A DNA stretch of 44,625 bases from an uncultured Dorea sp. (lineage in GTDB: Bacteria > Bacillota > Clostridia > Lachnospirales > Lachnospiraceae): the NCBI GenBank assembly GCA_947063855.1, contig CAMSTW010000023.1, positions 1 through 44,625 on the forward strand, read 5' to 3'. The translations under genes and the position numbers were made by a program. Below the pieces are notes generated by a model. The model did not search any database. It saw only the letters and a program-made list of their open reading frames with translations, and was not told the DNA's origin. This document shows, in pieces, positions 5,885 to 42,044 of this stretch. Each line of letters opens with the position of its first letter. Within the stretch, counting starts at the first letter, position 1.

Positions 5885-5953
5885 GGCGCGGCTTCCTTCT
5901 TTCTTCTCATCGACATTCTCCTCCCTTCATACTCCGGCTTTCCTCACTTTCTC

Positions 5954-7042: not shown

Positions 7043-7310
7043 ATACGATCCCTCCTGTCTGATTCTCTTATGAAACAGTACATCACTGCATACGCATAAC
7101 ACACCGTCCGGACTCCCGGCCTTCATTGCCGGTAAATATATACCTTCATTTACCGCAGATAACGTTATTCACCATATGCACCGTCACATACACGGATCGC
7201 GATTCCCCGAATCTCAATACAGTGATGTACCAGTCTACCAGTTACGTGAAATTCTGCCGATATGGCATCGAACACCTCAAAACTTCAGAATATCATGAAT
7301 CTATCAATGA

Positions 7311-20038: not shown

Positions 20039-20683
20039 CTATTCATCTTCATCCAGACCAGCGTACGCCTCCCGATTCCCAAGCCGTCCTCCGATCAGAT
20101 TCAGCACCACGCCGAGCAGCACCACGCAGGCCGCCGCGATCTTCCCCTCAAGGGACGTCATGATCGTCAGCACCCTTCCCACATAAGGAACCGTCAGCGC
20201 CACCCGCCCGATGTAATTATCATACGGCACCGGCGCAGGATCTTCCTTCTCGTTGGCGTCTCCCTTTGTGGTAAATGTACCCGACACCACGTTATTCTTC
20301 ACAACCCGGTGTGTAATGATGCCGGAATCCTCAAGCGAACCATAGAACGCTATGATATCCTTCTCCTCTACATCCTCAGGCTCTCCCGACCGTACATACA
20401 GGAGACTTCCCACCGGTATGGCAGGCTCCATACTGCCGCTGAGCACATTGTACATATGGAACCCGATCATTCCGGGCAGCACCAGCAGCGAGCACAGCAG
20501 AATCACCGCCACAATCAGCAGAATCCCCGCCGCACTGCACACCCTGCCGTCTGTGCTTCTTCTCTGCCTTCTGACAGGCCCGGCGCTTCCCGCCCCTCTG
20601 TCTCTTCTTTTCTGTCTTCTGACAGATCCGTCTCTGCCTTCCTTCCTGCTCTCAGGCATACTCCGCCTGTTCACATTTCCCAT
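20039..20683 (-). CDS. sipW: SipW-type signal peptidase I
   Basis: This 214-residue protein is an ER-type signal peptidase: Ser84 in SGSMEP, His125 in THRVV in place of the usual Lys, and Asp142 in GDANE. The basic N-terminus (about 50 residues, two imperfect copies of a RRQ-rich motif) precedes a membrane helix, and a second helix is near the C-terminus. SipW enzymes process TasA/TapA and CalY-type fibre proteins. The two proteins with such signals are encoded upstream in the same operon. It is the last gene of the 17-kb surface operon, and it starts three bases after the MucBP-like gene. Confidence 0.9.
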   Translation of the reverse strand: MGNVNRRSMPESRKEGRDGSVRRQKRRDRGAGSAGPVRRQRRSTDGRVCSAAGILLIVAVILLCSLLVLPGMIGFHMYNVLSGSMEPAIPVGSLLYVRSGEPEDVEEKDIIAFYGSLEDSGIITHRVVKNNVVSGTFTTKGDANEKEDPAPVPYDNYIGRVALTVPYVGRVLTIMTSLEGKIAAACVVLLGVVLNLIGGRLGNREAYAGLDEDE

Positions 20684-20685
20684 GA

Positions 20686-21735
20686 CTACATCTCATCATC
20701 GGACTGTCTCCGGATCAGCTCCTCGGTCAGTTCCCGGGGATGCTTCCTCACTACAGCCTTCCGCTTCTTCCTGAGATAGAACGCCATTCCGGCAAGGGCC
20801 AATACCGCCGCTGCGCCGATTCCGATATAGATCGGAAGATATCCCATCAGATGTCCGCCCGGGCGCCCCGGATCCATCTTCGCAAGCGGCACGCCTTCAT
20901 CCAGATCCTGCACCTGATCCGGCATGTCGGCCTGCGGCACCGCGTCATCCGGCACTGCTACCGGCGCGTCACCGCCAACGCCGGCGTCCGCTCCGGCCGC
21001 ATCCGCTCCGGGTCCTGCCGCCGCTCCTGCATCTGCTCCGGCCGCCCCCGCATCCGCTCCAGGAGCCGTACCGCCCGCAGTTCCCGTCCCGGTCGTCCCG
21101 GTTCCGGGCGTTCCTGCGTCTGCTTCCGGAGGAGCCGTCGTCCCTACGGGAGTATACTGGAAATTAAACACATTTTCCGCCTCATTGGCCGATAAGGTCA
21201 TCACCAGATTGTACGCCTGGGGCAGATATCCGTCCACATATCTTGCCGACACATACTGCCGCTCTCCCGGATTGCCATAGTAAGTATCACTTGGCAGGAG
21301 ACTGTTTCCGGCCGCATCCTGATAATTGACCGTATATTTTACCATGTCGCCGCTCACCGCGTACGCAATCACATAATCTCTGTCGCTTCCCACTTCAAAG
21401 GTCGCCGCCGTCGCTTCGGAATTATCTCTTCCAGATCTTCTGACGCCCTTCACATGGTATCTCTCATCCGTCACCTTCGCCGCATCCTGGGGAATCATAT
21501 ACACTGTATCACCGTACTTCAACCCGCTGACCACCATGTGATCCCCGCTCATCGCCACGCGGGCGCTCTCCGGCGCCGAGATACCTTTCCCGGTCAATAC
21601 GCCCTGATTTCCGGCATACAGCCTCACCGTATACGTATACTGCGCATCCTCTGCAAACACCGTCTGCCCGGTCACCATCGTCAGTACCGCCAGAATCAGA
21701 AGACCTGTGCGTATCTTTCTTATACACTTCATCAT
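20686..21735 (-). CDS. MucBP-like membrane-anchored surface protein
   Basis: The product has 349 residues. Signal peptide (cleavage near FAED, about residue 28), an extracellular region with a MucBP-like stretch (VKYTVNYQDAAGNSLLPSDT, about 133-152), a Gly/Ala/Asp/Pro-rich low-complexity stalk (about 200-265), and a C-terminal membrane helix with a basic tail. It has no LPXTG motif, so the helix should anchor it directly. MucBP domains can bind mucin in some lactobacilli, which is only a suggestion here. Overlaps the previous gene by four bases. Confidence 0.7.
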   Translation of the reverse strand: MMKCIRKIRTGLLILAVLTMVTGQTVFAEDAQYTYTVRLYAGNQGVLTGKGISAPESARVAMSGDHMVVSGLKYGDTVYMIPQDAAKVTDERYHVKGVRRSGRDNSEATAATFEVGSDRDYVIAYAVSGDMVKYTVNYQDAAGNSLLPSDTYYGNPGERQYVSARYVDGYLPQAYNLVMTLSANEAENVFNFQYTPVGTTAPPEADAGTPGTGTTGTGTAGGTAPGADAGAAGADAGAAAGPGADAAGADAGVGGDAPVAVPDDAVPQADMPDQVQDLDEGVPLAKMDPGRPGGHLMGYLPIYIGIGAAAVLALAGMAFYLRKKRKAVVRKHPRELTEELIRRQSDDEM

Positions 21736-22571
21736 TTTCCCGGCCTCCTTCTTCCTGTCTGCGCTGCTGTGTCATCCTGGATCCACACGCCGGCCTCTGC
21801 CGCCAGTTCTTCCTCACGGTCACGTCTCATCCTCACAACCGCCAGAAGCATCAGAACCAGGCCCGCGCCCAGCATCATCAGCATATACAGCATGATCCGG
21901 GACTGGTCGCCCGTCTTGATCACCTCACGGTTCCTGCCAGGCGTATTTCCCGGAGGCGTATTCCCGCTTCCCACCAGCTCCGTCGCAAAATCCATCTGCA
22001 GCTTCGCATAAGTATTCTGGTAGTTATTCACCAGCGTCTCGCCGTCCAGCGCCACCTTAAGCTTCACAACGCCCGTATCGCCCTTCGTCATCCGATCCAG
22101 GTAGAAATAATCCTCAAGCGTCGTGGTCGCTCCGTGAAGCCCCACGCCGTTGATCCTGCCGTCGCCGCCGAATTTCTCACTGGAATACAGCGTCGTAAGC
22201 TCACCCTTCGTATCCGTATAAGTCAGCAGGTAGTCATAAGCGCCTCCCGCCGCGTCTCCGGCGTCCTCAAGGGTGCTTAAGACCTCATTCTTCATATACC
22301 AGTCCGCATTCTCACTGCAGGTGTTCTTAAGCGTGATCGTAAGCTCCACCGAATCTCCCGGCTGCATCAGGTTGATCTCATCCCCTATGTTCGCCGTGGT
22401 GAAATTACTGCTCATCTTCTTCCCGTCGAAGGTCACCTGCCATCCGGACGCACCCTGTCTGTCCTCTGCAAATGCAGTTCCGCGGGGTATCAGTGAGGAA
22501 GCAAGCACCAGAGCCGCAGTCAGGACGATCGCCGGGCCAAGGCCCGCTATATTTCCCTTTCTTCTCTTCAT
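21732..22571 (-). CDS. secreted surface protein with variant sorting signal
   Basis: The product has 279 residues. A signal peptide (cleavage near FAED, about residue 36) is followed by a beta-rich region (SVELTITLKNTCSENADWYM), with NIGDEINLMQPGDSV reminiscent of CalY/TasA-type repeats. Near the C-terminus EVIKTGDQ, a membrane helix and a basic tail form a sorting-signal-like end; the word differs from LPXTG and resembles the (N/D)PKTG/VIKTGD variants of sortase B-type substrates. It might be a tip or anchor component for the neighbouring SipW substrates. Overlaps the MucBP-like gene by four bases. Confidence 0.68.
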   Translation of the reverse strand: MKRRKGNIAGLGPAIVLTAALVLASSLIPRGTAFAEDRQGASGWQVTFDGKKMSSNFTTANIGDEINLMQPGDSVELTITLKNTCSENADWYMKNEVLSTLEDAGDAAGGAYDYLLTYTDTKGELTTLYSSEKFGGDGRINGVGLHGATTTLEDYFYLDRMTKGDTGVVKLKVALDGETLVNNYQNTYAKLQMDFATELVGSGNTPPGNTPGRNREVIKTGDQSRIMLYMLMMLGAGLVLMLLAVVRMRRDREEELAAEAGVWIQDDTAAQTGRRRPGK

Positions 22572-22586
22572 ACTCTCATCCTCCCT

Positions 22587-23441
22587 CTACAGAATCCCAA
22601 GTCCGGCCGCATCCACGCCCCAGGCGCTTCGGATGGCGTCCTGGGCGTTGTGTGTCTGCACCGCGTCCACTTCCACATCCACATGGAACTCTACGCCGTC
22701 ATATTTGTAAGTCGTGGTGATGGTGTTGCCCTTCGTCTCCACCGTCGCCTCCGACGCTACCTCTCCGTCGATACGGATGGTGTCGGCAAATGGAACCGAC
22801 TCACTGCCGGACGTCAGGATGCCCTTGTGATATAGCTCCATGCATTCCTTCTCTCCTCCATCTCCGGCCTCGCCCGCATCCACCGGATTCTTCACCCACT
22901 GACCTTCATTCACCAGATTCAGGTCGATCAGGGCCGGCGATAATGTGGTTACCTTCACGTTCTGTCCGTTCTCATTCTTCTTCGTCCAGTATCTATAGAT
23001 TCTCACACGGACATACTCATCTATGGATCCGCTGTTCTTCACAGACAGCTTCTCTTCATACTTCTTATTCAGCGCAAGCTTCTCCTTCTTCCCGTTCTTA
23101 TCCTTAGGAAGCATATTCTGAAGAAGCGCGCCGCTCGTGGAATCCGCCCCGCGGTTGGTATCCGTCTTCCACTCGTCCTTATCATAATCACGGCTGCTGA
23201 CCACCTGCCCGTTCTCCACCAGGCTTACGCCGATCTGGGAAACGGTGATCTGCGCCGTATAGTTCTCGCTGTAATAAGTCAGCGCCGCCCGGGTGCTCCC
23301 CACGGTACTCCCAAGAAGCATGACCGCCGCCAGTGCAAGCAGCCCGTAGGTCACCTTCCTGCTGTTCCCGCCGTTTCCTGCGCTTCTTTGCTTTCTCCGT
23401 GTCTCCCGGTTCCTTTCAGAGGCTCTTCTTTCCTTCTTCAT
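22587..23441 (-). CDS. SipW-dependent CalY/TasA-like protein
   Basis: About 284 residues; the ATG at 23441 overlaps the upstream stop (TGATG), with a TTG one codon earlier as an alternative and AGGAGG upstream of both. The basic N-terminus (RNRETRRKQRS) leads to a helix and a signal of SipW type: GLLALAAVMLLGSTVGSTRA then LTYYSENYTAQI. The mature part has SVKNSGSIDEYVRVRIYRYW, the strand pattern of CalY/TasA-like fibre proteins. No anchor is present. It likely assembles into fibres once cut by the SipW enzyme at the operon end. Confidence 0.82.
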   Translation of the reverse strand: MKKERRASERNRETRRKQRSAGNGGNSRKVTYGLLALAAVMLLGSTVGSTRAALTYYSENYTAQITVSQIGVSLVENGQVVSSRDYDKDEWKTDTNRGADSTSGALLQNMLPKDKNGKKEKLALNKKYEEKLSVKNSGSIDEYVRVRIYRYWTKKNENGQNVKVTTLSPALIDLNLVNEGQWVKNPVDAGEAGDGGEKECMELYHKGILTSGSESVPFADTIRIDGEVASEATVETKGNTITTTYKYDGVEFHVDVEVDAVQTHNAQDAIRSAWGVDAAGLGIL

Positions 23442-24058
23442 CAACGATTCGCCTCCTCTCCCTGCCGGCCGCTGTCATCCGGCTCTTCCTCATATTCCGA
23501 ATAAACTCTCGACCAGTCTGCCGAAGCATTGCCATCCTCATCATAGACGACCGGCGTGCATTCCTGGATCACCACCACGTTGAAGTTATCCTTGTCAAAC
23601 CCCTCCGGAACATTAATCTTCACATCCAGAGGAGACGTGAAGGATATATTTTCCGGATGTTCATAATCTCCCGGAACCCGGCTTGCCGGAAGAACCGGCC
23701 TGTAATACACATAACGGAATCCCTTCTCATCTGCCGTATCATCCAGATACCAGTCACTGTTTGCCGGAACGTCTGGACTGTCCGGATAACCGATATCCAG
23801 ATCCCCGCCATAGAAGATCTTCACACGCACGAAGCAGTCATTGACTGCAGACTCATTCGCAATCTGGATATGCTTCGTCATCAGGGATACATCCTCATGA
23901 ATCGTCGTCTGCGCTCCAAGGCTTACCACCTCGCCGCCGCCCGCCGACACATAAGTCGTAAAATACGCCAGAGAACTCTCGATGGTCAGCGCCGCCGTCA
24001 TGCCAAGAGCCGCAGCCGACATCGCAATTACTTTTCCATATTTCTCCAAATACTTCAT
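23441..24058 (-). CDS. SipW-dependent TasA/CalY-like fibre protein
   Basis: The product has 205 residues. The N-terminus is a SipW-type signal (LGMTAALTIESSLAYFTTYV, with LAYFT at the cleavage region). The mature region holds VNDCFVRVKIFYGGDLDIGY and ends in an acidic tail. TasA and CalY families polymerise into extracellular amyloid-like fibres in bacilli; here the polymer is an inference. Its stop overlaps the next gene by one base, and the AAGGAG ribosome binding site is 11 bases before the ATG. Confidence 0.82.
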   Translation of the reverse strand: MKYLEKYGKVIAMSAAALGMTAALTIESSLAYFTTYVSAGGGEVVSLGAQTTIHEDVSLMTKHIQIANESAVNDCFVRVKIFYGGDLDIGYPDSPDVPANSDWYLDDTADEKGFRYVYYRPVLPASRVPGDYEHPENISFTSPLDVKINVPEGFDKDNFNVVVIQECTPVVYDEDGNASADWSRVYSEYEEEPDDSGRQGEEANR

Positions 24059-24076
24059 TCCTGTTGCAGCTCCTTC

Positions 24077-25102
24077 CTATTCTTCCACCGGAGACGTTGG
24101 ATTATCCCATTTCCAGCCGTTGTTTCCGTCCGAATCAAAATGGTTCGTCACGCCGTATCCGCCTCTGTTCCCGCCGTCATACCGATTGGTGAATGTCACC
24201 GACGCTTCTTCTCCCGCCCCGGCTTCTACCGCAGCGTCCGACCAGATCAACGCAGAATCCATATCCGATCCGACGATCGTATAGCTGGCTCCGGAATAAA
24301 CCTCCGTCACCGTCACCGTCAGTCCCGCCGGGATCTTATCAAGCGTCACCGTCTCACTGCCTGCACCCTCATGGGTAGTGCTGACCACTTCACTGTACAC
24401 CACCGCCCCTGTCTCGTCCTTTCCTTCTATCTGGAAAACGAATGAGGTACGTCCCAGCGTCTCGTTATAGTTCGACAGCACCTTCGTGATATTCAGCTTC
24501 CCATACTGCGGATCCCCGCCCGCCTTCAGGCCAATCTCCGGGTCATAGTTCCAGTCGTCGCTCCCCCCGCCTGTCAGCGCGTATTCACTGGTGGGAAGCG
24601 CCGTCAGGTATGGGGTGAACTCATATTTTACCGTATAATCCGCATTATAGGATGCTTCCGGTACGACCAGGTACATGCCCACATCCAGATCCTCGAACAC
24701 CCCTTCGGCTTCTTTGGCTGACCCCTCCGGCTTCCGGACCGTCACCTTCGCGGCCGCCTCTGCCCCGGGCAGATATTCTTCCGCTTCCTTCGCCAGATTC
24801 TGCCAGTCATCCGCCGTTGTCGTACTTCCGATATTGCCTAAGTTCATCTGTGAAAATGGAGCCACAGGCGTATATCTTCCTGCCACGTCCACATCAGCTA
24901 CCTTGTACAGCGACACCGGAATGCTCATCTCGTTAAAATCTTCCTTGTAATCACTGCTTCCTACAGATACCGTAAGGCTGCACTTCGCTGATGTGTCTAT
25001 CGCCGCAGCCGCCTCCGTCCGTATCCGGACCAGGCACGGCAATGTCAGCAGAAATGCCAGAGCCAACGCATATCCTTTTCTCGTTCTTCTACTAATCTTC
25101 AA
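24077..25102 (-). CDS. SpaA-like secreted pilin domain protein without sorting signal
   Basis: The product has 341 residues from a TTG start with GGAGGG upstream. A signal peptide ends near TEAAA (about residue 33). Two pilin-like domains follow: SVSLYKVADVDVAGRY with DVGMYLVV, and the second with LNITKVLSNYN and VTLDKIPAGLTVTVTEVYSG, the SpaA/Cna_B strand pattern including a Glu in TVTE. No LPXTG motif and no C-terminal membrane helix are visible, so it is probably secreted or held by other subunits. It may be a linker between the sortase pilus and the SipW fibres. Confidence 0.68.
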   Translation of the reverse strand: MKISRRTRKGYALALAFLLTLPCLVRIRTEAAAAIDTSAKCSLTVSVGSSDYKEDFNEMSIPVSLYKVADVDVAGRYTPVAPFSQMNLGNIGSTTTADDWQNLAKEAEEYLPGAEAAAKVTVRKPEGSAKEAEGVFEDLDVGMYLVVPEASYNADYTVKYEFTPYLTALPTSEYALTGGGSDDWNYDPEIGLKAGGDPQYGKLNITKVLSNYNETLGRTSFVFQIEGKDETGAVVYSEVVSTTHEGAGSETVTLDKIPAGLTVTVTEVYSGASYTIVGSDMDSALIWSDAAVEAGAGEEASVTFTNRYDGGNRGGYGVTNHFDSDGNNGWKWDNPTSPVEE

Positions 25103-25123
25103 CTCTTTCCCTCCTTACGGTTC

Positions 25124-26140
25124 TTACTTTCCTGTCTTTCTTGTCTTTGAGCCTTTCTCTGATTCCCTCTCGTTATCCCGGGGTGATTCGTCTGTTTCTT
25201 CTGACTTCCCGTCTTCGGCCGTCTCTGTCTGCCGCCCCTCAGCGCTGCCGCTGTCTGTCTCCGCCTTTTCTTCTGTTCCCGCCAGCTTCTCTTTCTTCCT
25301 CATGATCCGCCGGAGTGTCAAAATCGCAAGAACTGTCACTCCAAGTCCCAGCAGGAGATACAGCATATAGTAATTCTGGATAGCCTGCACCATAGATTCT
25401 ACAGGCGTAGATTCCAGTTCCCCGTCATAGGGAACCCGGTGCCCCCGGACCAGCAGCCGGTGGCTGTTCACGCCGTAGGGCGTACAGGTAAACAATGTCA
25501 CATAATCCTGCCCCTCTTCTATCTTAAGCGCCTCTTCCAATGCGTCATAATCATCCTTATCAACCATCGGCAGGATCTGATCCACCTCATACGCCAGATC
25601 CTCGTTGAGAATGTGCAGATAGAACCTATCCTTCTTCTTCAACTGGTCTATATCGGTAAACAGTTTCGCACTCGGCAGCCCTCTGTGAGCCGACAGTACG
25701 CTGTGGTTGCTCTCGCCTCCCACCGGAAGCTTCGTCCCGTTCAGGTGTCCCACTCCGGTCTGGAGCACCTCCTCGTCCGTCCCGTGGTAGATGGACAGCC
25801 TCACCCGGATCTTGGGGATGGTGAGATATCCCATAATCCCGTCACCGGCGGCGTTAAGTACCTTCCAGTACTCCGTTGTCTTCATATCTTCAGATTCACT
25901 GATGCCGAATACGTCACTTCGTATGCTGTTCTTGTCAAATGTCTGGTTATAGCCTCTGGCCGCGGTCCACGCCTCCTCGAAATCCTCTTCGGTCATCTCA
26001 TTTACTACGGAATCATAATTGGAAATGAGTTTCGACTGGCGGTAGGTGTTCCATTGATCCGCAATGGTCGGATAGGCCAGGATCCCAAAACCTGTGAGAA
26101 ACAACAGCCCAAATAAAAATGTGGATATCTTCCGCTTCAT
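25124..26140 (-). CDS. class C (pilin-type) sortase 2
   Basis: The product is 338 residues. The catalytic triad is His152 (AHRGLP), Cys219 in TLFTC and Arg228 (NSHRLL). N-terminal and C-terminal membrane helices flank it, a class C arrangement. The C-terminal tail after the second helix is acidic and Glu/Ser-rich. It should link pilin subunits through lysine isopeptide bonds outside the membrane. Its start shares one base with the stop of the first sortase. Confidence 0.93.
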   Translation of the reverse strand: MKRKISTFLFGLLFLTGFGILAYPTIADQWNTYRQSKLISNYDSVVNEMTEEDFEEAWTAARGYNQTFDKNSIRSDVFGISESEDMKTTEYWKVLNAAGDGIMGYLTIPKIRVRLSIYHGTDEEVLQTGVGHLNGTKLPVGGESNHSVLSAHRGLPSAKLFTDIDQLKKKDRFYLHILNEDLAYEVDQILPMVDKDDYDALEEALKIEEGQDYVTLFTCTPYGVNSHRLLVRGHRVPYDGELESTPVESMVQAIQNYYMLYLLLGLGVTVLAILTLRRIMRKKEKLAGTEEKAETDSGSAEGRQTETAEDGKSEETDESPRDNERESEKGSKTRKTGK

Positions 26141-27042
26141 TACTGCTCCTTCTCCTGATGCTCTGTATTCGTTAATTGTATTTCTGCCTTCTGTTTCTTA
26201 ACTGCTATCTTCTCCCTTTTATATAGGAAGAAACAGAATGCGGCCGTGACCAGGATTCCCACGATTACCCACAACAGATAATTGGTGTGCAGGCTCATAT
26301 CACTAAGCGGCAGGTTCTCATCCGCAAGCTCCTGAGGATCGTAGGGAACCCGGTGTCCCCGCACTAACATACGGTGGCTGTTCACTCCGTAAGGCGTACA
26401 AGTCAGAAGCGTTACCAGATCTTTCCCGTCTTCCACGGCCAGATCCTTGGTATCCTCCGGGTCAACTATGGATATCTGATCCACCTCATAACAGAGAGTG
26501 TCCTTCAATATGTGTAAGAGGAAATGATCCCCTACCTTCATCTTATCCAGATCCGTGAACAACGCCGCGCTTGGCAGCCCCCTGTGAGCGGTAATAACCG
26601 CATGTGTATTCTCCCCGCCTACCGGAAGGGAGCTTCCTTCCAGATGTCCTGCCGCCTTCTCAAGAATCTCCTTCGCCGTCGTATGGAAGATCGGAATCGT
26701 AATATTAATCTTCGGGACTTCTACCGTTCCCATCATGCCGTCCCCGGCAATATTCAGACATGCTGTATATGCATCGTTTCCATCTGAGTTCTCTGCATCT
26801 GCAAAGGAATCCGGAAGGATGCTCGGAAGCAGTGCATCGTTGTAACGCACTGCCAGTTCATACTCTTCCTCATAGTCGATCATCCCGGCGGCCTCTTTCT
26901 CGGCCACCACCTGATCATAGTTACTGATTAACTGCTTCTGTCTGTAATTGTTCCATTCATTTGCGATAAACGGATACAGCAGCAAGGACAACCCGGCTAA
27001 AAATAAAATAGATATCAGTATTTTGCTTGTTCTCTTATTCAT
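26140..27042 (-). CDS. class C (pilin-type) sortase 1
   Basis: The product has 300 residues. The triad is His153 (AHRGLP), Cys215 in TLLTC and Arg224 (NSHRML). Two membrane helices flank the catalytic domain. The AAGGAGAG ribosome binding site is six bases before the ATG. The two sortases share much sequence (VRGHRVPYD etc.) and probably arose by duplication, one perhaps for the main pilin and the other for the giant adhesin or another minor subunit. Confidence 0.93.
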   Translation of the reverse strand: MNKRTSKILISILFLAGLSLLLYPFIANEWNNYRQKQLISNYDQVVAEKEAAGMIDYEEEYELAVRYNDALLPSILPDSFADAENSDGNDAYTACLNIAGDGMMGTVEVPKINITIPIFHTTAKEILEKAAGHLEGSSLPVGGENTHAVITAHRGLPSAALFTDLDKMKVGDHFLLHILKDTLCYEVDQISIVDPEDTKDLAVEDGKDLVTLLTCTPYGVNSHRMLVRGHRVPYDPQELADENLPLSDMSLHTNYLLWVIVGILVTAAFCFFLYKREKIAVKKQKAEIQLTNTEHQEKEQ

Positions 27043-27101
27043 CCGGACTCTCCTTGTTGTTGTATCTTTGTTACTGTGTATGTGTAGAAATCCTTCCGGT
27101 C

Positions 27102-27128
27102 ACTCCGGGACCGATACAGTCCCGGAGT
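27102..27128 (-). other. hairpin between pilin and sortase genes
   Basis: ACTCCGGGAC / GTCCCGGAGT is a perfect 10-bp stem with a seven-base loop. No T-run follows on the minus strand. It may stabilise the pilin message or slow transcription into the sortase genes. Confidence 0.6.
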
Positions 27129-27180
27129 TCTCCGGAGTTATAAGTATATCTTAGTGTGCCTGAACTAACGTCAGCTGCAA

Positions 27181-28836: not shown

Positions 28837-28967
28837 TTTCGTTCTCCTTTTCCTTTTATTTGTTTTTACATTCTGGTTACGTGTGCATTGCACACAGTTT
28901 CCGTTAGTGCATGTTACGCACTCTTTTTTGAGCGGTGCAGGGACCGCCAAAAAGTCATTCACATGTT
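28837..28967 (-). other. three hairpins between giant adhesin and major pilin
   Basis: Stems lie at 28881-28895 (GTGTGC / GCACAC), 28906-28922 (AGTGC / GCACT) and 28924-28954 (CTTTTTG..CGGT / ACCG..CAAAAAAG). None has a standard T-run. A long open reading frame crosses them in frame with the pilin and would be Cys-rich (CVTC, CVQC), but no start site supports its translation. Confidence 0.55.
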
Positions 28968-31900
28968 CTAACTTCTCAGCACCTCCCTACGTTTATTTCT
29001 ATATGTCATTAACGCTGCGGCTGACATCAGCAGCACGCCGCCAAACATATACCAATAGATTCCCATGCCTCCAGCGGATGGCAGTTCGTAGAGCTCCTCG
29101 TTGCAGATTTTCACTACAATCTTTTTACCATCTGTATCCGTTTCAACACTTGCCATACCATTATTAGAATTCGGAACCGATACACCACTGTCTGTATTCA
29201 GAGTAAAATCTACCGGATCTCTCAACAATGAATATCCTTCCGGCGATTTTATCTCTGTGATTGTATAATTCCCAGGCTTTAAATTATGAATAGTCAAGCC
29301 GTCCGTATGATCCACACTCAGATCCGTCTGAGTATCTGCAGTAATTCCTGCCGGAATCAATACCCATTTTTGCGCAGGTGTATCGTTTCTCTCCCACAAA
29401 TGAATCTTTTGATTCTCCTGTGTCGTTGCTCCATTCAGATCCAGACTCCACGCATCCTTTCCTGTTTGGGGTGAGATATATGCACCTCCACCGCAATCTG
29501 TAACATACCACGTCTGATTATCATTCGGCGCATCATTGCTCCAAACATGGATTTTAGCTCCGTTCGTCAGATATCCGCTATCCAAATCCAACCATTTGGA
29601 TGCGGCCACATTCAGGAAGCTGTAAAGCTTTTGACCGCTATCATCCTCGCTTTCTTTCACCTCAAACAACTGATTGGAATCGCCTGTTCGGTTCTGCAAT
29701 ATCGGCAACGCCCCATCCTGAGTCCCGTTAATACCCACCACATAATATGGATTCTCCGCCAATGCTATATAGTACTTTCCTTTGCGTGAAGCATCTCCTT
29801 CTTCGTCATAAGGTGTATATCCCTTCTCATCATCATAAGTGAAAGATATTGTTTCACCCTTGCTATCCTGAATCGTAAAAATGGCTCCTGTCAGGTTCTT
29901 TCCGTCTGTACCCACCTTCCGAATCTTCATCTGTGTATCAGGATAGAACCCACTGTCATGATATTTTGATTCATATAACGAAACATTCATATCCTTTGCT
30001 TCCGGCATTTCCAGATTCAGAATAATCGTTTTTTCCAAATCTCCTTCTTTCGACCGGGACGCAACTGCGTCAGAATCTCTGGTGTCGTCATCACCTTGAT
30101 CCACACTGGTTGCATTTAACTGCGTAATTGAGGTGCTGCCATTTGTAAATCGTACAGCATAGATTCCTGCAGGCAGATCGGTAAATTTGTATCGTCCGGT
30201 TTCATAAGCAACTGCATCCTCTCCGTTTTTGGCACGGACACTGATCTGCTTTCCGGTTTCAATCATCACCCTATTATCTGGATTATTCTTATCTGTATCA
30301 GGATAGTAAACATTCTCATAAGAACTCTCAAGATTCGGTTCGCTTCCCTCTTTCAATTTCAATAACTCCACCTGAACACCCGATATACGCTTCTCCATCC
30401 CTGGTTCATCCTGCAAACCGTCCTGATTGTAATCCATCCAGGTTAATCCTTCTAAGGTACGCCTTACCGTAGGTGTCTCCGTAGTTGTCGTGGTATCTCC
30501 ACTGGAAAGCAGGTTAACGAAGTAATTATTCTCTTCCTTATCTTTGTCCGATGCTCCCGGATCCAGCAGAATCTTCAAATCTATATTGACACTCTCTCCC
30601 GAATCCAATGTTCCAATTACCGCCCAGGCTACCGGATAAGGCTGAGCCTCTGTGGCGCCATGTTCCTTGGTCGGCAGTTCTATCTCTCCATCTTGGTTAA
30701 TATCCGCCTTCTCCCACCCTTTGCCTTTATATCCACCTGTACCCTCGATTTCCTCTCTCTTTACTTCCTTCGTTGTCTTGTTCTTATACTTTGTATCGAA
30801 AGTATAGTAAATCTTAAGGTTTTCAACCTTACATTTGGTTGTATCCAATTTCCATTGTGCAAAGGTATAGGTGCCTGTAAAGTGACTGCCATTCTCTTGA
30901 TTCATAGGCATAGTGTCCATAATCGTCAGTGAGGTGCCTGTTTCTGCATTATTGTTATAATAAACTACATAATCAATAAAGCCGTCTTCATCTACTACCT
31001 TTTGCTTTGTATACTTACCAAACGAACTGGCGCTGCCCCGTGTCACGGCAATCCCGGCTTCGGAATGTTTCTCTCCTGTTGTAAAAGCATCCCTTAAGTC
31101 TCCCGGCGCCGTGATATACACCTTGTTCTCCAGATTCGTTGTTCCAACAGGTACATCCTCATCAGGATTTCCCTTAGCGCCAACATCTGCCGAATAATAG
31201 ATTGGCGCCATCGGAGTACCAATCTCCACATCTGCCAGCTTCCAGGTCAGAGTCTGCGTCCCGTCTGCATTATCTGTTACCTCCGGTTCTTTCAAAACTG
31301 GAGTTGGAAATTTTGCATCCGAGCCGGTATCCTCTTCGATTTTTCCCTGCGTGCCGCCATTTACCGATGTCTGTTCGTAAGCTCCTCCAAAATAACTGGA
31401 ACCCGGTTTATATTTCAGATACTTAGGCAATGTATCTACGATTGTAACAGTCGTTATATTATTGAATGTTCCCGGCTGATCGTAATATGTTCCCGGTTCA
31501 AGCTTATAGTCCACTACTCTCTGATCTGCATCAAGGTTAAATGTCTTCTTATCCTGCCCGTTATTATCCTTCTGCATCAGATATTTGGATACTTTCGTCT
31601 TATATCCAATTATCAGCAAAGTATCGCCCCAGTGTGCCCAGTCAGAATTATGATCGCCGTTGATACCGCTCCCATCCAGCTTATAAGTTTCTTTTCTATA
31701 CCAAACAGATCCATCTATATTTGCACTAGTATAATGCCAACTTGCGGGAAATTGATTCAGTTTAGTATTCGGCTCACTCCAATCCGGAATATCCTCCAGC
31801 CCTTTTCCATTAGTAACAAACATCTGCTTAGTCCAAACTCTGGATGTAGACGCCAACATATACGTCTTTCCGGCCAAATCCATATTATCCTTAACTTTGG

Positions 31901-34900
31901 CTTTGTGATAGCAGACATAATAAGGATCTGCCGCATCTGCCAGAGCGCCCGGCCCAATAAAGCTGTATAATATGCCAACACATACTTTCCCCTCCGGAAT
32001 GCTTTCCAGATTCTCATAAAAAACCAAGTCATCTTCGTAAGTATTCAGAAGTTCGTCATCATCCTTCCAATCTTTTCCATCCGTCTTTGTTGCATAACGA
32101 ATCTGGATATTTTCCTTTAACTCATCATTCTCCTTTCCATCAAGAGTCGCACCACCAGAAAACGCCGGAAACCACTCATTCTCCAACTCTATGGCGCTCC
32201 CATAGAATTTGGTCAGATTCGTCCCCAGATAGAGTTGATTCTCTGCCTCTCTTTTCGCATCATATGAGAATCCCCCCATCAGATACAGTCCTGATCCCAC
32301 AGCTGCATAATCTCGCCCATCCCTGGTATCATCTACTCCTGCTCCCTTATTTATCGGCTCTGTAGCAGATGCATAACGAATTCTGTTCTGCAGCTGCCCC
32401 GGAAGCGTCAGCTCTAACGTGCGAACTAACTCATCATCGCTAGAAACCATTTGGTCAAAGCCGCCCTTACCTTGCTCTACCTTCGTTCCACTAATTGTGG
32501 TTGCTTTCAGATTACTATCCTTCACGGTTGTTGCAAAGGCTCCCTGTCCATATTGGTTCACTACATCATAATTCGGCTCCTCACCATGTTCCGTTCCTTC
32601 TATCGTATTGAAAGGCTGGACAATCCAAATTGCTCCGGACGAAAAACATCCCTCGTTTGGTCCATACTTTCCACTGGAATAATCACCATTAATAATCGGC
32701 ATCCTATCCGGATTAATTTCATAATCACTGACCGTAATACTAATCTTTCCTGTATCCCTGTCCTGTACTGCTTTCCAGGACCCACTCTCATAGCAACTGT
32801 TTCCTTCCCCTCCCGTACTGTAAGGAGCATGAGGAGAACAGGCCAAGGAATCATAAAGCACACGCCCATCTGTATTCTGTACTCCGTACTCCCTCCAATA
32901 GTTCAGTCCATAACTCCACAAGAGCGGTTGATATTGATTACTTGTATCAATCTGCTGCCCTTGCTGATATTGACTTCCCTCCTTCGGTGTATTGATCGTA
33001 TATTTGGAAGAAACCTCCAAATCAAAAGTGATGTCTCCTGTAGGGAGTTCGATTCCTTTCAATCCCTTAGACGCATTATCATTATATAGCTGTAAGGTAA
33101 TACCAAGTTTCATAATACGGCCGGGAACTGGTGTCGAGATATCTGCATTCGCCGCCACATCTCCATACTTGTTCATCCAAGCTTCATCACCTTGAAAGTC
33201 AAAATCAGCTTTATATGATGAATTTCCTTCTATATGAATATTGTAACGGGGGGCTGCTGTTACCTCTACCTTCTCTGCTGTGACACTTTTTTTCTCCACG
33301 GCAGGCTCATCATCAATTTTATGATCCTCCTTATCACAAGGATCGTCCCACGCCCCTCCTTCCATGGCCGCACTGATAATGGGTGCAAATTCCTCTCCAT
33401 TCTTCATTGCACGGACATTGATCGTCACATTCTCCCCGAAATCCCCGGGTACTACCGACTGATTACCAGAAGATGGAAGCAGCCACTTGTAACAGGTAAG
33501 AACCTGGCATTCCTTTTCCTTACCATCAATTGTACGTTTTTCCTTCGTAAGCTTCGGTTTATAACCTTCCGTCTGATCCATCCATGCCATAGCAGTCTGA
33601 TCGAATACCGCTTCTTTTTCTGTCAGCGGCAGTACAAACTCCATTTTGACACGTGCTTCACTGTAACTCTTGGATATGTCCCAGGATTTCATATTAACTG
33701 AGAAATTATATGTCACGGTATCAAACGTTCGGACAATCTCATCCTCAGCTGTTGTGTCATTTCCCGGACCTTCTTCTGTATCAAAAGGCGCCGCTCCTGT
33801 AGCTATACTTGTAACCTTAATCTCATTCACATAAGCCTCATCAGGTTCCATCGGATTCCATACCGAATCTCCCGCCTGGTCATCCAACATCTCTGTCTTC
33901 ATCCAGTCCATCTGAAGCAGTTTCTCTGCATTCGTCACTTTCTTCTGCTGCGCCTCTGACAATGCTTCATATGCGTCGAATGCTTTCATCACTTGTTTCT
34001 GAAGCTTTATATAATATTTCTCATATCCATCTTCATCATCTTCCAGAGCTTCCATCTTCTCCTGAATCTGCTCTGGCGAAGGAATCTTATCAATCAGGTC
34101 AATCACTTCATCTACCTGCCTCTGTTCCTTCTCGGATAACTTATCTTCTTCTGACCCATCTTCATCTGCAGGCTTCTCTTCTTTACTCTCTTCTTCCTTA
34201 ACCTGATTGGTTTCTCCTGCAGACCCGGATGGCTGCGCATCTTCAGAATCCTGCGTTTCCGCTGTATCTGCCGCTTCTTTATCCACTCCTTTATAAGCCT
34301 TCTCTAGCTCCGTAATCTTCAGATATCTGACAATCTGTGTATCTCCGGCATGATACTCATTCTCCCGTACCTCGTTTCTGCTGTTGCCTTCGATTACCTT
34401 GATCTCATCCTTCTCTTTATTATAGGAAGAAACTACTCCCATCTGGCTTGTTCTCTCTTCCCCTTCTTTCTTAAGGAAAATGAGATCGCCAGCCTCAGGC
34501 GTGTACCCGTCCGCCTCTGTCAGGCAGGAAAGATACTTCTCGTTCTGCTCATTTATATTTCTAAATTCTTCGAACCACTTATCTGCATCTGTCTCGTCCG
34601 GGAAGAGTCCGGATGCTTCCAACCCCGCATAATAGATACAAAAGTTAACAAACGCCGCATCCCAATCGCAGTACACATCACCAACGAACTGCCCGTACCT
34701 TGTATACCCTTTACGGCTTCCATCCTCCGCAACCGTATAGTTATCCGCGTTCTCCTTATAACCGATCTGCTTCTGCGCCGCCGTTACAAGATCTTCGCCC
34801 CAGGCATCCTTCCAGTCCACATCCTTATACTGTGCTTCCCACACGGATGCGTCTTCCACGCCCGCCTCTGTGTCGATGTAGCACTGGTCTGTATGTGTAT

Positions 34901-35399
34901 GCTCTTCCTTACCGCATGTAATCTGTGACTGTGAGCAATCTTCCGTGTGCGTATGGCCTTCGCTCTCTTCCTGTCCGCATACCAGAACGGAATCTGTCTG
35001 ATAACATCCGTCTGTATGTGTATGGCCCTCGCTCTCTTCCTGCCCGCATACCAGTGATCCGTCTTCTGTGTAACAGTCTTCTGTATGCGTGTGTCCGGCG
35101 TCTTCTTCCTCTGTGCAGACCAACGTAGTCTCCGTCTGATAACACGCATCGGTGTGAGTGTGCCCTGCCTGCTCCTGCAGTCCGCATGTCGTCTCGCTCG
35201 AATAGCACGCTTCACTATGCTGATGCTCATCCATTTTGCACTTCGCATTCCCGGTCATGGCCACGCCGTATTGTGTCAGAACTCCGATCACGCCGCCTAC
35301 CACCATGACTATCAGAAGTATCGCGGCTATACCGGTTCTCCTTCGCTTCTTCTGCCGACTCTTCATTTCATTCAAATACTCTCTTACAAGCTTCTGCAT
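28968..35399 (-). CDS. giant LPXTG-type adhesin with His/Cys repeats, CHAP-like and ricin domains
   Basis: This 2143-residue protein has a short basic N-terminus and membrane helix (about 20-45) rather than a standard signal. Six repeats of the type HTHT-x-x-C-x(6-10)-C fill residues 58-175, perhaps metal-binding. A CHAP-like domain (about 203-362) follows: the usual active-site W-C-A is YCDWDAAF (Cys244 shifted, Asp247 in its place) and the His is replaced by Gln319 (SQMGVV). An acidic linker and helical segment (365-500) lead to long beta-rich adhesin repeats with an SdrD_B-like part (about 1650-1770). A SpaA-type fold (about 1820-2070) is split by a ricin-type lectin (about 1903-2015). LPSAGG and a membrane helix end it. 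It is the largest gene in the operon, probably the pilus tip or cell-surface anchor. Confidence 0.88.
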   Translation of the reverse strand: MQKLVREYLNEMKSRQKKRRRTGIAAILLIVMVVGGVIGVLTQYGVAMTGNAKCKMDEHQHSEACYSSETTCGLQEQAGHTHTDACYQTETTLVCTEEEDAGHTHTEDCYTEDGSLVCGQEESEGHTHTDGCYQTDSVLVCGQEESEGHTHTEDCSQSQITCGKEEHTHTDQCYIDTEAGVEDASVWEAQYKDVDWKDAWGEDLVTAAQKQIGYKENADNYTVAEDGSRKGYTRYGQFVGDVYCDWDAAFVNFCIYYAGLEASGLFPDETDADKWFEEFRNINEQNEKYLSCLTEADGYTPEAGDLIFLKKEGEERTSQMGVVSSYNKEKDEIKVIEGNSRNEVRENEYHAGDTQIVRYLKITELEKAYKGVDKEAADTAETQDSEDAQPSGSAGETNQVKEEESKEEKPADEDGSEEDKLSEKEQRQVDEVIDLIDKIPSPEQIQEKMEALEDDEDGYEKYYIKLQKQVMKAFDAYEALSEAQQKKVTNAEKLLQMDWMKTEMLDDQAGDSVWNPMEPDEAYVNEIKVTSIATGAAPFDTEEGPGNDTTAEDEIVRTFDTVTYNFSVNMKSWDISKSYSEARVKMEFVLPLTEKEAVFDQTAMAWMDQTEGYKPKLTKEKRTIDGKEKECQVLTCYKWLLPSSGNQSVVPGDFGENVTINVRAMKNGEEFAPIISAAMEGGAWDDPCDKEDHKIDDEPAVEKKSVTAEKVEVTAAPRYNIHIEGNSSYKADFDFQGDEAWMNKYGDVAANADISTPVPGRIMKLGITLQLYNDNASKGLKGIELPTGDITFDLEVSSKYTINTPKEGSQYQQGQQIDTSNQYQPLLWSYGLNYWREYGVQNTDGRVLYDSLACSPHAPYSTGGEGNSCYESGSWKAVQDRDTGKISITVSDYEINPDRMPIINGDYSSGKYGPNEGCFSSGAIWIVQPFNTIEGTEHGEEPNYDVVNQYGQGAFATTVKDSNLKATTISGTKVEQGKGGFDQMVSSDDELVRTLELTLPGQLQNRIRYASATEPINKGAGVDDTRDGRDYAAVGSGLYLMGGFSYDAKREAENQLYLGTNLTKFYGSAIELENEWFPAFSGGATLDGKENDELKENIQIRYATKTDGKDWKDDDELLNTYEDDLVFYENLESIPEGKVCVGILYSFIGPGALADAADPYYVCYHKAKVKDNMDLAGKTYMLASTSRVWTKQMFVTNGKGLEDIPDWSEPNTKLNQFPASWHYTSANIDGSVWYRKETYKLDGSGINGDHNSDWAHWGDTLLIIGYKTKVSKYLMQKDNNGQDKKTFNLDADQRVVDYKLEPGTYYDQPGTFNNITTVTIVDTLPKYLKYKPGSSYFGGAYEQTSVNGGTQGKIEEDTGSDAKFPTPVLKEPEVTDNADGTQTLTWKLADVEIGTPMAPIYYSADVGAKGNPDEDVPVGTTNLENKVYITAPGDLRDAFTTGEKHSEAGIAVTRGSASSFGKYTKQKVVDEDGFIDYVVYYNNNAETGTSLTIMDTMPMNQENGSHFTGTYTFAQWKLDTTKCKVENLKIYYTFDTKYKNKTTKEVKREEIEGTGGYKGKGWEKADINQDGEIELPTKEHGATEAQPYPVAWAVIGTLDSGESVNIDLKILLDPGASDKDKEENNYFVNLLSSGDTTTTTETPTVRRTLEGLTWMDYNQDGLQDEPGMEKRISGVQVELLKLKEGSEPNLESSYENVYYPDTDKNNPDNRVMIETGKQISVRAKNGEDAVAYETGRYKFTDLPAGIYAVRFTNGSTSITQLNATSVDQGDDDTRDSDAVASRSKEGDLEKTIILNLEMPEAKDMNVSLYESKYHDSGFYPDTQMKIRKVGTDGKNLTGAIFTIQDSKGETISFTYDDEKGYTPYDEEGDASRKGKYYIALAENPYYVVGINGTQDGALPILQNRTGDSNQLFEVKESEDDSGQKLYSFLNVAASKWLDLDSGYLTNGAKIHVWSNDAPNDNQTWYVTDCGGGAYISPQTGKDAWSLDLNGATTQENQKIHLWERNDTPAQKWVLIPAGITADTQTDLSVDHTDGLTIHNLKPGNYTITEIKSPEGYSLLRDPVDFTLNTDSGVSVPNSNNGMASVETDTDGKKIVVKICNEELYELPSAGGMGIYWYMFGGVLLMSAAALMTYRNKRREVLRS

Positions 35400-35411
35400 C
35401 TTCTCACCTTC

Positions 35412-36254
35412 CTAGTGTATCATTCCTATACGGGCCTTCGGCCACGCCCTAAAAGCTGCTTTGCCGACGATCTGGCTCTCCTCTACACATCCGAGCGCCT
35501 TCATCCGGCTGTCTATGGATACGGCTCTGTTATCTCCCAGCACGAAGATCATTCCTTCCGGCACCTGGTACGGGAAGTCCTGGTCACATTTGCCCAGCTT
35601 CTTATCCGCCACATATGGTTCGTCGATCATCCTGCCGTTGACATATACATTGCCTTCCTGATCTATATCTATCTCATCTCCTGCGCTGCCTACGGCGCGT
35701 TTCAGAAGTATCTTCCCTCCATAGTAGAAGCCCACGATATCTCCCGCCTCGATCTCCTTCGTCTGCCGGAGGATTACGATCTCTCTGTCCTCCAGTGTGG
35801 GCGCCATACTGCTGCCGTTGACTTCCAGCAAGATCAGAAGTCTTGTCATCATCAGCGCTGTTATGGCGGCGGCTACGGTCAGGATTCCTGCTATATTAAG
35901 AAGAGATCTTCTGAACTCGTGTCTGGCCTCTTCCCTTGCAAGCTCCATCCTCAGATCGTTGATCGGAGGAATCTCTAACTTCTTATGCTCCTCTTTGCCG
36001 CTCTTCTCCGTCTCTTCACTGCATTCCGCAAGTCCGTCCCGTCCCGGATCATCTGCAGCAGGTTCCGAATCTTTCTTTCCGCTTCCTCCGGCAATGTCGG
36101 TTCTTACGGTTCCTTCCCTGTCTTCCCCGGCAATGTCGGCTCTTACGGTTCCTTCCCTGTCTTCCCCGGCAATGTCGGCTCTTACAGTTCCTTCCCTGTC
36201 TTCCCCGGCTTCTTTGCCTTCGTCTCTGCCACGCTCAACCTTCTCACTATCCAT
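35412..36254 (-). CDS. lepB: type I signal peptidase with repeat-rich N-terminus
   Basis: This 280-residue protein has Ser149 in NGSSMAPTL and Lys185 in LLKRAVG, with GDNRAVSIDSR as the C-terminal box, so it should be active and membrane-anchored by a helix near 118-140. The cytoplasmic N-terminus has three perfect or near-perfect copies of a 13-residue unit (EDREGTVRADIAG, residues 18-56), seen as a 39-bp DNA repeat. It lies 12 bases before the giant adhesin gene. A second, SipW-type peptidase ends the same operon. Confidence 0.92.
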   Translation of the reverse strand: MDSEKVERGRDEGKEAGEDREGTVRADIAGEDREGTVRADIAGEDREGTVRTDIAGGSGKKDSEPAADDPGRDGLAECSEETEKSGKEEHKKLEIPPINDLRMELAREEARHEFRRSLLNIAGILTVAAAITALMMTRLLILLEVNGSSMAPTLEDREIVILRQTKEIEAGDIVGFYYGGKILLKRAVGSAGDEIDIDQEGNVYVNGRMIDEPYVADKKLGKCDQDFPYQVPEGMIFVLGDNRAVSIDSRMKALGCVEESQIVGKAAFRAWPKARIGMIH

Positions 36255-36828
36255 GGAGTTTCTTTCTCCGGGTTACCGGCCTCCATCCTGCCTCATACGG
36301 AATCCGCTGTCCGTGTACCTGTCTTCTGTCAGATATCGTAAATGTCCCCGGGGTCTTTCTCTCTTCCGGTACTGCCAGCCGCTCCGGCGGCTCTGCCTGC
36401 ACCGGTATCTCCGACTCCCCCGGAAGCGCCGGATATCCAGATCCCGACGGGCTGTCTGATACATTTCCGCTAATCCGCTTAACATTCATCAGATACTGTT
36501 CTGCGCATCTCTGCGCCGCCTCGAAGATCCCGTTCAGCCTAAGCGCCGCTTCTGCGATGGATCCGGCTTCTTCTAATTCGATTACCCTCGACGTCTGTAT
36601 CTTCTCAACCTCCGCCTTAAGCTCTGCAATCTTCGCATCCTTCTGGTTCAGGCGTTCGTCCTTGATGTCAAGCTTCTTCTTAAGGCGTTCGTAGCCTTCC
36701 TGTAAATCCTCTAATTCCGTCCTTGTCTCGCCCAGTTCTTTCTCAAGCCTCTCTGTCTCCTCACATTGTGCAAGGAGCATCTGCAGGAGATCCCTTCGTT
36801 TTAACCTGCGTAACTCTTTGTTCCCCAT
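36247..36828 (-). CDS. coiled-coil protein at the head of the pilus operon
   Basis: The product has 193 residues. The N-terminal 95 form a long coiled coil (EETERLEKELGETRTELEDL and following heptads), then a helical segment with SIAEAALRLNGIFEAAQRCAEQ that is often seen in DivIVA-like or ATPase-adaptor coiled-coil proteins, and a Pro/Ser-rich, basic tail. No membrane segment is visible, so it should be cytoplasmic. It overlaps the signal peptidase gene by eight bases. Its role may be to organise or regulate the machinery. The family is not certain. Confidence 0.65.
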   Translation of the reverse strand: MGNKELRRLKRRDLLQMLLAQCEETERLEKELGETRTELEDLQEGYERLKKKLDIKDERLNQKDAKIAELKAEVEKIQTSRVIELEEAGSIAEAALRLNGIFEAAQRCAEQYLMNVKRISGNVSDSPSGSGYPALPGESEIPVQAEPPERLAVPEERKTPGTFTISDRRQVHGQRIPYEAGWRPVTRRKKLHG

Positions 36829-36832
36829 ATTG

Positions 36833-37288
36833 TCACTCCTTGATCTTATTCTCTTCCAGCACGTGGTCGATCATCTTCATCAATTCCAGTGCGGAGCGGA
36901 AGTTCACGGTCTCATTCTCCTCGATCCATGTGACCTTCCCCTGCCAGCTGCTGTGCTGCCTGTGTTGTACCCGTATGATAAATGTTCCAAGATCGCCTTG
37001 TTGTCCTAATAATGTCTTATCATCCATAACCTTGACCATCTCTTCCTTTTTTCTATATGAATAGGATCTCCCGTCAAACTCTCTGTCGTTGGTGGTCATC
37101 TGCGGATACCCCAAATCATTAAATAGATTCTCTGCGATACGAATCACTTCTTCGAAGCAGGCAACCGGAATCGCCTCTTCTGAATATGCGTGATATACTC
37201 TGCCCTGGATGCCTCGTGTGTCTTTGCCGTCAATGGCCAAGACAATACTGTTGGATATTCCTGTGTATATTGATAATTGTTCTTTCAT
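36833..37288 (-). CDS. protein of unknown function, first gene of the pilus operon
   Basis: The product is 151 residues, without signal peptide or membrane helix. The start MKEQLSIYTGISNSIVLAID and the end NFRSALELMKMIDHVLEENK are protein-like, and a segment EVIRIAENLFNDLGYPQMTT lies in the middle. It ends four bases before the coiled-coil gene, so the two are likely translated together. I do not recognise the family; a regulatory or adaptor role is possible given the position. Confidence 0.6.
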   Translation of the reverse strand: MKEQLSIYTGISNSIVLAIDGKDTRGIQGRVYHAYSEEAIPVACFEEVIRIAENLFNDLGYPQMTTNDREFDGRSYSYRKKEEMVKVMDDKTLLGQQGDLGTFIIRVQHRQHSSWQGKVTWIEENETVNFRSALELMKMIDHVLEENKIKE

Positions 37289-37815: not shown

Positions 37816-38322
37816 TTACTGCACAAGCTGTTTCCTATGCCACTCCAAACAGGCTACAGCTGTTTCCAAGGAGAAGCCAATCCTTTCCTGCAGCTTTTTC
37901 AATATTGCTGCATCATCCAGACCAAATTCCCATCCCATTTCTATAATTTCTTCTGCTCTTCCTTCAGCTCTTCCCTCCGCTCTTCCTCGCGCTCTTCCTT
38001 CACGGATCAGTTTCTCAGATTCTGTCTCAATCACTGCCCCGCCCATTATATTCACCAGCCTTTCTTCGTTTTTGTTTCCGTTTGTGATGTGGGTAATGAT
38101 AGTATTTACAAATCCCATGAGATCCACCACTTCGATATCTGATAATTCTCCTCCTTTATGCAGCCAAAGTATCTGATCCCTGATGTATTCCAGATCCTTT
38201 ACCGCATTTTCTATACTGTGTCCGGACGAGATATCCTTTTCGTACTTTGCAATATAAAAAGGAATATATGGAAATAATCTCTTCTCAATAATGTCTTCCT
38301 TCGTAAAAGCTTCCAGAATCAC
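37816..38322 (-). pseudogene. Rpn/PD-(D/E)XK transposase family, type A, 3' part
   Basis: This is the C-terminal half (168 codons) of a gene like the complete copy at 38459-39388, with differences of only a few residues. It lacks the start and the nuclease core. Its 5' end joins, at GATTCTGGAAG, a 125-bp piece of the type B gene (38323-38445). The junction sits at a short shared word, so recombination is likely. Confidence 0.85.
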
Positions 38323-41823: not shown

Positions 41824-42044
41824 AAAAAGTCTCCTTTCTTCTGCACAACTCACAGAATCAGATTAAGAAGACCTTTCTTGCTGCTTGTAACCATAATACC
41901 ATGAAACGGATTCCCGTAAAAGGCGGATTTGTAAAAAATCTTCCTATTATTGATTCTGAAATACTCTGCGTTGTTAAAAATAAATCTCGGGTAACTCTCC
42001 GGCGGAACGTCGGTCAGAATGCAAAAGACGAATGTCTCTTAGAA

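Follow-up and report, generated by a model that had tools for sequence, protein, structure and literature searches.

In the window, which is the whole 44,625-nucleotide (nt) stretch of contig CAMSTW010000023.1 from an uncultured Dorea sp. (Lachnospiraceae; GenBank assembly GCA_947063855.1), a run of 13 minus-strand genes (20039..37288) joins the components of a sortase-assembled pilus to those of a SipW-dependent secretion module. This joined pilus-SipW cassette is a stable, defined and conserved type. The order class C sortase, SpaA-like protein (SPAA), two SipW-type secreted proteins (SW1 and SW2), a protein with a class-B-type sorting signal (KTG) and a membrane-anchored protein (MUB) was kept in 97 of 111 non-redundant strong loci, a set which includes the window and the other host copies, was partly chosen by similarity and was reduced from 117 by the removal of six near-copies. 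We propose, with a probability of about 0.52, that the operon encodes one composite appendage, in which a pilus would be carried through SPAA on a SipW-type fibre anchored by a class B sortase.

The assembly of sortase pili and that of SipW fibres have been treated as distinct routes. A 2018 review deals with them in separate sections (PMC5817068) and a 2026 paper sets the TasA/CalY route of Bacillus cereus apart as sortase-independent (PMC13082335). A joined pilus-SipW operon was not found in literature searches, whose coverage lacked most subscription journals and bioRxiv preprints. If real, such a conserved joint would give bacteria that show no class A sortase an additional means of rooting a pilus, and it would bear on how Lachnospiraceae keep their hold in the gut.

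An open reading frame (ORF) check of the window confirmed the single run predicted originally: all 13 ORFs lie on the minus strand, their coordinates agree with those given before, and the family matches identify both pilus and SipW parts. The features, in 5' to 3' order, are as follows (aa, amino acids).

36833..37288, minus: G1, 151 aa, cytoplasmic-looking; a relative lies at L007:13425-13910
36247..36828, minus: coiled-coil protein, 193 aa; coiled-coil cross-matches only, all below cut-off
35412..36254, minus: LepB-type signal peptidase I (TIGR02227, 1.7e-33; PF10502, 2.4e-32)
28968..35399, minus: adhesin, 2143 aa, probable pilus tip; SpaA, SdrD_B and ricin-type lectin domains, LPSAG sorting signal
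27181..28836, minus: major pilin; iso_D2 domain, LPSTG signal, linking lysine
27102..27128, minus: hairpin with a 12-pair stem in the gap between pilin and first sortase
26140..27042, minus: class C sortase 1 (NF033745, 9.2e-81)
25124..26140, minus: class C sortase 2 (NF033745, 4.5e-81)
24077..25102, minus: SPAA, SpaA-like protein, 341 aa, without sorting signal (DUF5979, 2.2e-9)
23441..24058, minus: SW1, SipW-type secreted protein, 205 aa; relatives BsaA-like
22587..23444, minus: SW2, SipW-type secreted protein, BsaA-like, 285 aa
21732..22571, minus: KTG, beta-sandwich; class-B-type sorting signal VIKTGD (TIGR03063, 22.9 bits)
20686..21735, minus: MUB, membrane-anchored; weak MucBP similarity
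20039..20683, minus: SipW-type signal peptidase (TIGR02228, 2.1e-24; NF046067, 4.5e-22)

The close spacing that had been described for the whole run was found from the first sortase to SipW, where eight genes are separated by -4 to +21 nt, but not around the pilin. The gaps there are 131 nt before the gene, given the ATG at 28836 as the likely start (the frame is open from 28962), and 138 nt after it, the latter containing the hairpin. Of 84 pilin-sortase gaps (those outside 30-500 nt were excluded), 73 contain a hairpin of -12 kcal/mol or better, where dinucleotide shuffles gave 19.6 on average, and the examples inspected differ in sequence between loci. The hairpin may tune the ratio of pilin to downstream products.

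Conservation of the joined cassette

The host genome, which is 84% complete, holds four cassettes, on contigs C23, C38, C18 and C30; the C30 cassette has a single class C sortase and a class B sortase directly after SipW. Relatives were collected by scanning genome contigs with SW2, and among the best 80 of 164 nearly all had the same order where the contig was long enough, a few loci placing SipW ahead of KTG. The loci carried taxonomy labels that were mostly Lachnospiraceae or its genera, including Blautia, Coprococcus comes and Eubacterium ramulus; others were Eubacterium, Acutalibacter and Faecalibacillus, with one metagenome-assembled genome each labelled Clostridiaceae and Muribaculaceae, the last label probably being a binning error. 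Four short duplicates (L001-L004) were dropped. The gene order is more than chance, since it recurs at the three other host loci and in other genomes, and the gap between class C sortase and SPAA has a median of 12 nt (n=100).

Because the best 80 were chosen by similarity, genomes were also drawn evenly. SW2-like matches were present in 14 of 293 genomes of a class draw (E<=1e-3) and in 39 of 298 genomes of a family draw (E<=1e-6), and in the latter the neighbourhood of every SW2 match from outside the host genome was examined. The sortase threshold was 150 bits, below which fell two of the 13 class-sample loci (L116, 29 bits; L120, 64 bits). A class C sortase was present in 26 of the 33 strong family-draw loci. 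The order, whose lack of conservation had been named as grounds for refutation, does recur. The seven strong loci without one were L159, L163, L173, L180, L181, L184 and L185, with a contig edge on the sortase side in L163 and L180. None of the 17 weak SW2 loci had an intact class C sortase, L186 showing fragments only; three G270 loci (SW2 124-137 bits) were counted in neither group. Among 26 control genomes without a listed SW2 match, 10 had a class C sortase above cut-off. The premise that the two systems are normally separate was thus right as far as tested, since SipW modules and class C sortases each occur alone.

In a tree of SW2, 90 of the 105 rows, 78 of them pilus-linked, fall on one side of a supported branch (Shimodaira-Hasegawa-like approximate likelihood ratio test, SH-aLRT, 97). 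The pilus label requires six changes on this tree, four of them forced by starred branches.

Some variants of the cassette were observed. A LepB-type gene lies between sortase and SPAA in L167 and L072, where other loci place the second sortase, and L186 (G543:C83), which lies close to the end of its contig and shows both class C sortase and SW2 as fragments, is apparently a decayed cassette copy.

SPAA as candidate joint

SPAA consists of two domains, the first of which resembles the pilin head (hhalign 95.2%, E 2.6e-8). The hhalign alignment places K193 of SPAA on the linking lysine of the pilin, K228 when numbered from 28962, which is itself present in 89 of 91 aligned pilins. In an alignment of 105 SPAA, from which four above 600 aa were left out to be judged separately by eye and regular expression, K193 was kept in 104 and W184 in 102, and the spacing from tryptophan to lysine was 9 in 86, matching the published pilin motif WXXXVXVYPKN (PMC5536039); the divergent SPAA of L110 reads WNYNVKIYPK. 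The C-terminal domain has an invariant K207/E267/N306 triad, as is typical of internal isopeptide bonds, and all 105 rows close with an N-x-F/Y tail (N320/F322 in the window). The sorting motif LPx[TSA][GA] was found in the last 50 residues of none of 109 SPAA, and the window cassette holds no LPXTG basal pilin gene. By sequence, SPAA therefore looks like an anchorless basal pilin, having all the traits of one except the anchor, and the single lysine makes a single-residue test possible. Two tandem SPAA genes were seen within one cassette at L068:7050-9490.

The C-terminal domain of SPAA also occurs in SipW loci where pilus genes were not seen. In L173, L184, L185 and L111 it ends giant proteins of 1072 to at least 2937 aa directly before SW1 (profile E 2e-29 to 4e-40); no pilus genes were found within 2.9-10 kb upstream of these loci, and the linking lysine or pilin motif is absent from the giant proteins. 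The same genomes (G302, G478 and G270) also hold pilus-linked loci (L172, L182, L183 and L110), whose short SPAA have the aligned lysine or the motif. The 30 weaker SipW loci (among them L115-L124 and L187-L201, which have no sortase pili) contain, in 22 loci, 27 ORFs of at least 600 aa (624-1654 aa) before SW1, SipW or SW2. Of these ORFs, 25 lie within 100 nt of the next gene, none has an LPXTG-like end and many end, by eye, in an N-x-F-like tail. In the 22 ORFs upstream of SW1 in the weaker loci the motif pattern that was found in 82 of 103 proteins of the strong set was not found (0/22), and no LPXTG protein or class C sortase was seen upstream of them, with less than 2.5 kb of upstream sequence for five of the 22.

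Co-variation of protein distances was assessed over whole-protein alignments and over the two halves of SPAA. Whole SPAA correlated with SW1, SW2 and KTG at r 0.86-0.89, with sortase 2 at 0.72 and with the pilin at 0.45, and MUB co-varied with KTG (r 0.88). The N-terminal half followed sortase 2 more closely than did the C-terminal half (0.77 and 0.56), while the C-terminal half was the closer to SW1 (0.83, against 0.79 for the N-terminal half). The resulting joint contrast for SPAA was 0.25 (bootstrap 0.17-0.33), or 0.22 (0.14-0.34) in two-sortase loci, and five other genes split alike gave -0.06 to 0.09. The earlier proposal of SPAA as a joint thus gains support from a pilin head with a conserved lysine, a C-terminal domain common to pilus-free SipW loci and this half-wise co-variation.

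SipW-module proteins and sortases

The label TasA/CalY, originally given to the fibre-like proteins, was too specific and BsaA-like is the better description. The BsaA model TIGR04090 matched 62 of 67 SW2 rows and 41 of 71 SW1 rows at E<=0.01. The window SW2 scored 20-23 bits against this model (20 for the whole protein; cut-off 60) and the window SW1 gave no match to it; by sequence, SW1 and SW2 appear to lie near the BsaA matrix family. At the N-terminus of SW2, A1, A2, S7 and Y10 are invariant in 67 rows, and residues 1-10 are disordered in the monomer model (mean predicted local distance difference test score, pLDDT, 42). TasA was not among the matches listed for a fold search with the SW2 model. 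SipW itself scored 86.2 bits with TIGR02228 (cut-off 51.85) and 78.6 bits with NF046067, the Bacillus SipW model, which is under that model's cut-off of 190.

The variant sorting signal predicted for KTG was present, although its type proved to be that of class B sortase substrates (TIGR03063), with a score above the cut-off of 18.15. This model matched 24 of 67 KTG rows at E<=0.01, in an alignment where the window row ended before its C-terminus, and at least 73 of 110 KTG relatives have the signal form [VI][KRQ]TG. Weak fold matches of the KTG model included an archaeal cannula fibre (9h8b), the Hyper2 tube (9bab) and TasA, none of them distinct from unrelated rows. KTG is the probable wall anchor of the fibre and MUB a possible assembly factor.

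In the 26 cassette genomes every Pfam sortase match overlapped, on comparison by eye, a match to a class C or class B model. Three of them (G430:C59, G415:C9 and G576:C44) overlapped only class C matches well under the cut-off (93.5, 92.2 and 38.5 bits against 160) and are probably of another class; in 23 of the 26 genomes no sortase class besides B and C was seen. Rooting of the pilus by a class A sortase, the textbook end of assembly (PMC8244301), is therefore not apparent in these 23. The host genome has seven class C sortases, all within its four cassettes, and two class B sortases, and a class B sortase lay within the examined flank of 18 of the 111 strong loci.

Composite appendage, alternatives and neighbouring genes

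The proposed appendage builds on the observed gene order and families, the pilin-head similarity with its lysine, the shared C-terminal domain, the co-variation pattern and the sortase inventory. LepB and the Sec route would export adhesin and pilin, and the class C sortases would join the tip adhesin to a pilin chain through LPXTG-to-lysine bonds. This chain would end on SPAA, which offers K193 in the manner of a basal pilin yet lacks a sorting signal, and whose C-terminal domain and N-x-F tail would dock non-covalently onto the end of a BsaA-like fibre of SW1 and SW2. SipW would release these two proteins by cleaving their signal peptides, and they would probably polymerise by donating the conserved N-terminal segment. 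KTG would form the fibre root, which a class B sortase would link to the wall, and MUB may serve as a membrane-bound assembly factor. The SipW-type fibre may, at somewhat under even odds, be a general mast with interchangeable heads, rooted by class B sortase and carrying a covalent pilus by means of an anchorless basal pilin, because this docking domain bears, in sister loci, a giant adhesin in place of the pilus.

Several results weigh against this arrangement. The bond between pilin and SPAA, the docking, fibre formation by SW1 and SW2 and class B anchoring are steps that we infer, and donor-strand assembly of SW2 is proposed by analogy because its model has no clear relative in the PDB. 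The lysine does not follow the pilus in every case: L025 has a pilus-linked SPAA without the aligned lysine, L180 has a giant SPAA-like protein, cut by the contig end, that keeps the motif, and in L159 and L181 the lysine is present at a locus that lacks a class C sortase, although both have an LPXTG adhesin upstream and class C sortases elsewhere in their genomes. Independent contrasts of lysine against pilus link, from which L186 was excluded as a decayed fragment, gave two of two in the expected direction on starred branches, too few to be informative (p 0.5). The profile of the SPAA C-terminal domain matched in only three of the 30 weak loci (L117, L122 and L194), each time weakly, so that the shared tail in the others is a likeness by eye. 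All 26 cassette genomes have a class B sortase, over cut-off in 25, but the 26 control genomes come close to this, with one in 25 and over cut-off in 19.

The co-variation data are also open to objection. Splitting sortase 2 gave a contrast of 0.094, with an interval (-0.05 to 0.30) overlapping that of SPAA, and contrasts above zero were obtained for MUB (0.08-0.09) and, in all loci, for KTG (0.06). The fibre side taken alone was clear only in two-sortase loci (SW1, -0.094; -0.155 to -0.038), the value in all loci being -0.040 (-0.087 to 0.004), and pilin distances track either half of SPAA weakly (r 0.15-0.28). A recombination boundary inside SPAA could be an alternative source of the contrast.

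The main rival is that two separate structures, a sortase pilus and a matrix fibre of the SipW/BsaA type, are co-regulated from one operon, with SPAA as tip or nucleator of the fibre and its lysine a relic or a means of decorating the pilus; we regard this as rather unlikely. SipW modules and class C sortases do occur apart, as in the weak SW2 loci and the controls, and SPAA co-varies best with SW1, SW2 and KTG. In Clostridium perfringens the neighbouring srtB is reported to be dispensable for BsaA polymers (PMC7395162), and SipW and fimbria-like variants alternate at one srtB-flanked site, so that each can stand alone (PMC5964661). However, two separate structures would leave unexplained why K193 is retained in nearly all short SPAA, why the lysine is absent from the four giant versions without upstream pilus genes, and why the cassette lacks an LPXTG basal pilin gene.

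A polymer could be dispensed with altogether if SW1, SW2 and KTG formed a short basal complex that anchors the pilus in place of a class A sortase. Such a complex would fit the 23 of 26 genomes in which sortases of classes B and C alone were seen, and it would fit the pilus loci, which usually have SW1, SW2 and KTG as single genes. We nevertheless consider it improbable: relatives of SW1 and SW2 match TIGR04090, a family with a matrix protein that reportedly forms filamentous polymers (PMC7395162), and stand-alone modules, several with extra SW1-like copies, have no pilus to anchor. Very improbable is the joint travel of two unrelated surface systems as a mobile cassette with no functional tie. 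Four copies in one genome, together with genes upstream of the operon in the window that weakly match transposases (another is at 40918-41853), speak for mobility, but the order and short gaps are conserved in many species, SPAA resembles the pilin head, and the pilus-linked SW2 rows lie mainly on one side of the supported branch. The composite structure envisaged in the original prediction is partly supported.

The proposed composite appendage shares features with several known systems. The SpaCBA and SpaFED pili of Lactobacillus rhamnosus GG likewise have an LPXTG tip adhesin, an LPXTG pilin with a linking lysine and class C sortases (PMC8244301, PMC5536039), whereas here the basal-pilin-like protein has an N-x-F tail and no LPXTG of its own, the operon runs on into a SipW module and a class A sortase was not seen in 23 of 26 genomes. 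The SipW-BsaA locus of C. perfringens combines a SipW peptidase, secreted proteins of the BsaA family and a nearby sortase B gene (PMC7395162, PMC5964661). There the sortase was dispensable for BsaA polymers and the SipW and fimbria-like loci are alternatives at one site, some strains having the latter, while here the SipW module shares its operon with a pilin, a pair of class C sortases and a SPAA that bears an acceptor. The alternating variants at the srtB-flanked site are a possible hint of how the modules come together. The TapA-SipW-TasA system of Bacillus subtilis and the SipW-TasA/CalY/CapP system of B. cereus are alike in having a dedicated SipW, a few secreted beta-rich proteins and a conserved N-terminal segment right behind the presumed cleavage site (PMC9674648, PMC13082335). 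However, neither a sequence match nor a clear fold match of SW2 to TasA was seen, and in contrast to the B. cereus route, reported as independent of sortases (PMC13082335), the SipW module is here joined with sortase genes. KTG has a C-terminal signal of the same type as class B sortase substrates (TIGR03063) and differs from them as a beta-sandwich tied to a SipW module.

No Pfam or NCBIfam profile matched G1, the first gene of the run, above cut-off. Its relatives adjoin BTAD regulators in SipW loci, and because such BTAD-G1 pairs recur, a regulatory role for G1 alongside the SipW module is possible. At L007:10663-13910, the genes behind SipW of the fourth cassette encode a class B sortase, a regulator of the BTAD type and a relative of G1. 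Upstream of the operon lie two near-alike tandem Rpn/transposase-like genes (37816-38322 and 38459-39388, minus) with weak family matches, and a PDDEXK_2 gene lies at 40918-41853; these genes are a possible route for duplication of the cassette. Elsewhere in the window, the minus-strand genes at 717-7126, with matches to DUF5702 (717-2261) and T2SSF (2597-3937), perhaps encode a system like Tad or type IV pili.

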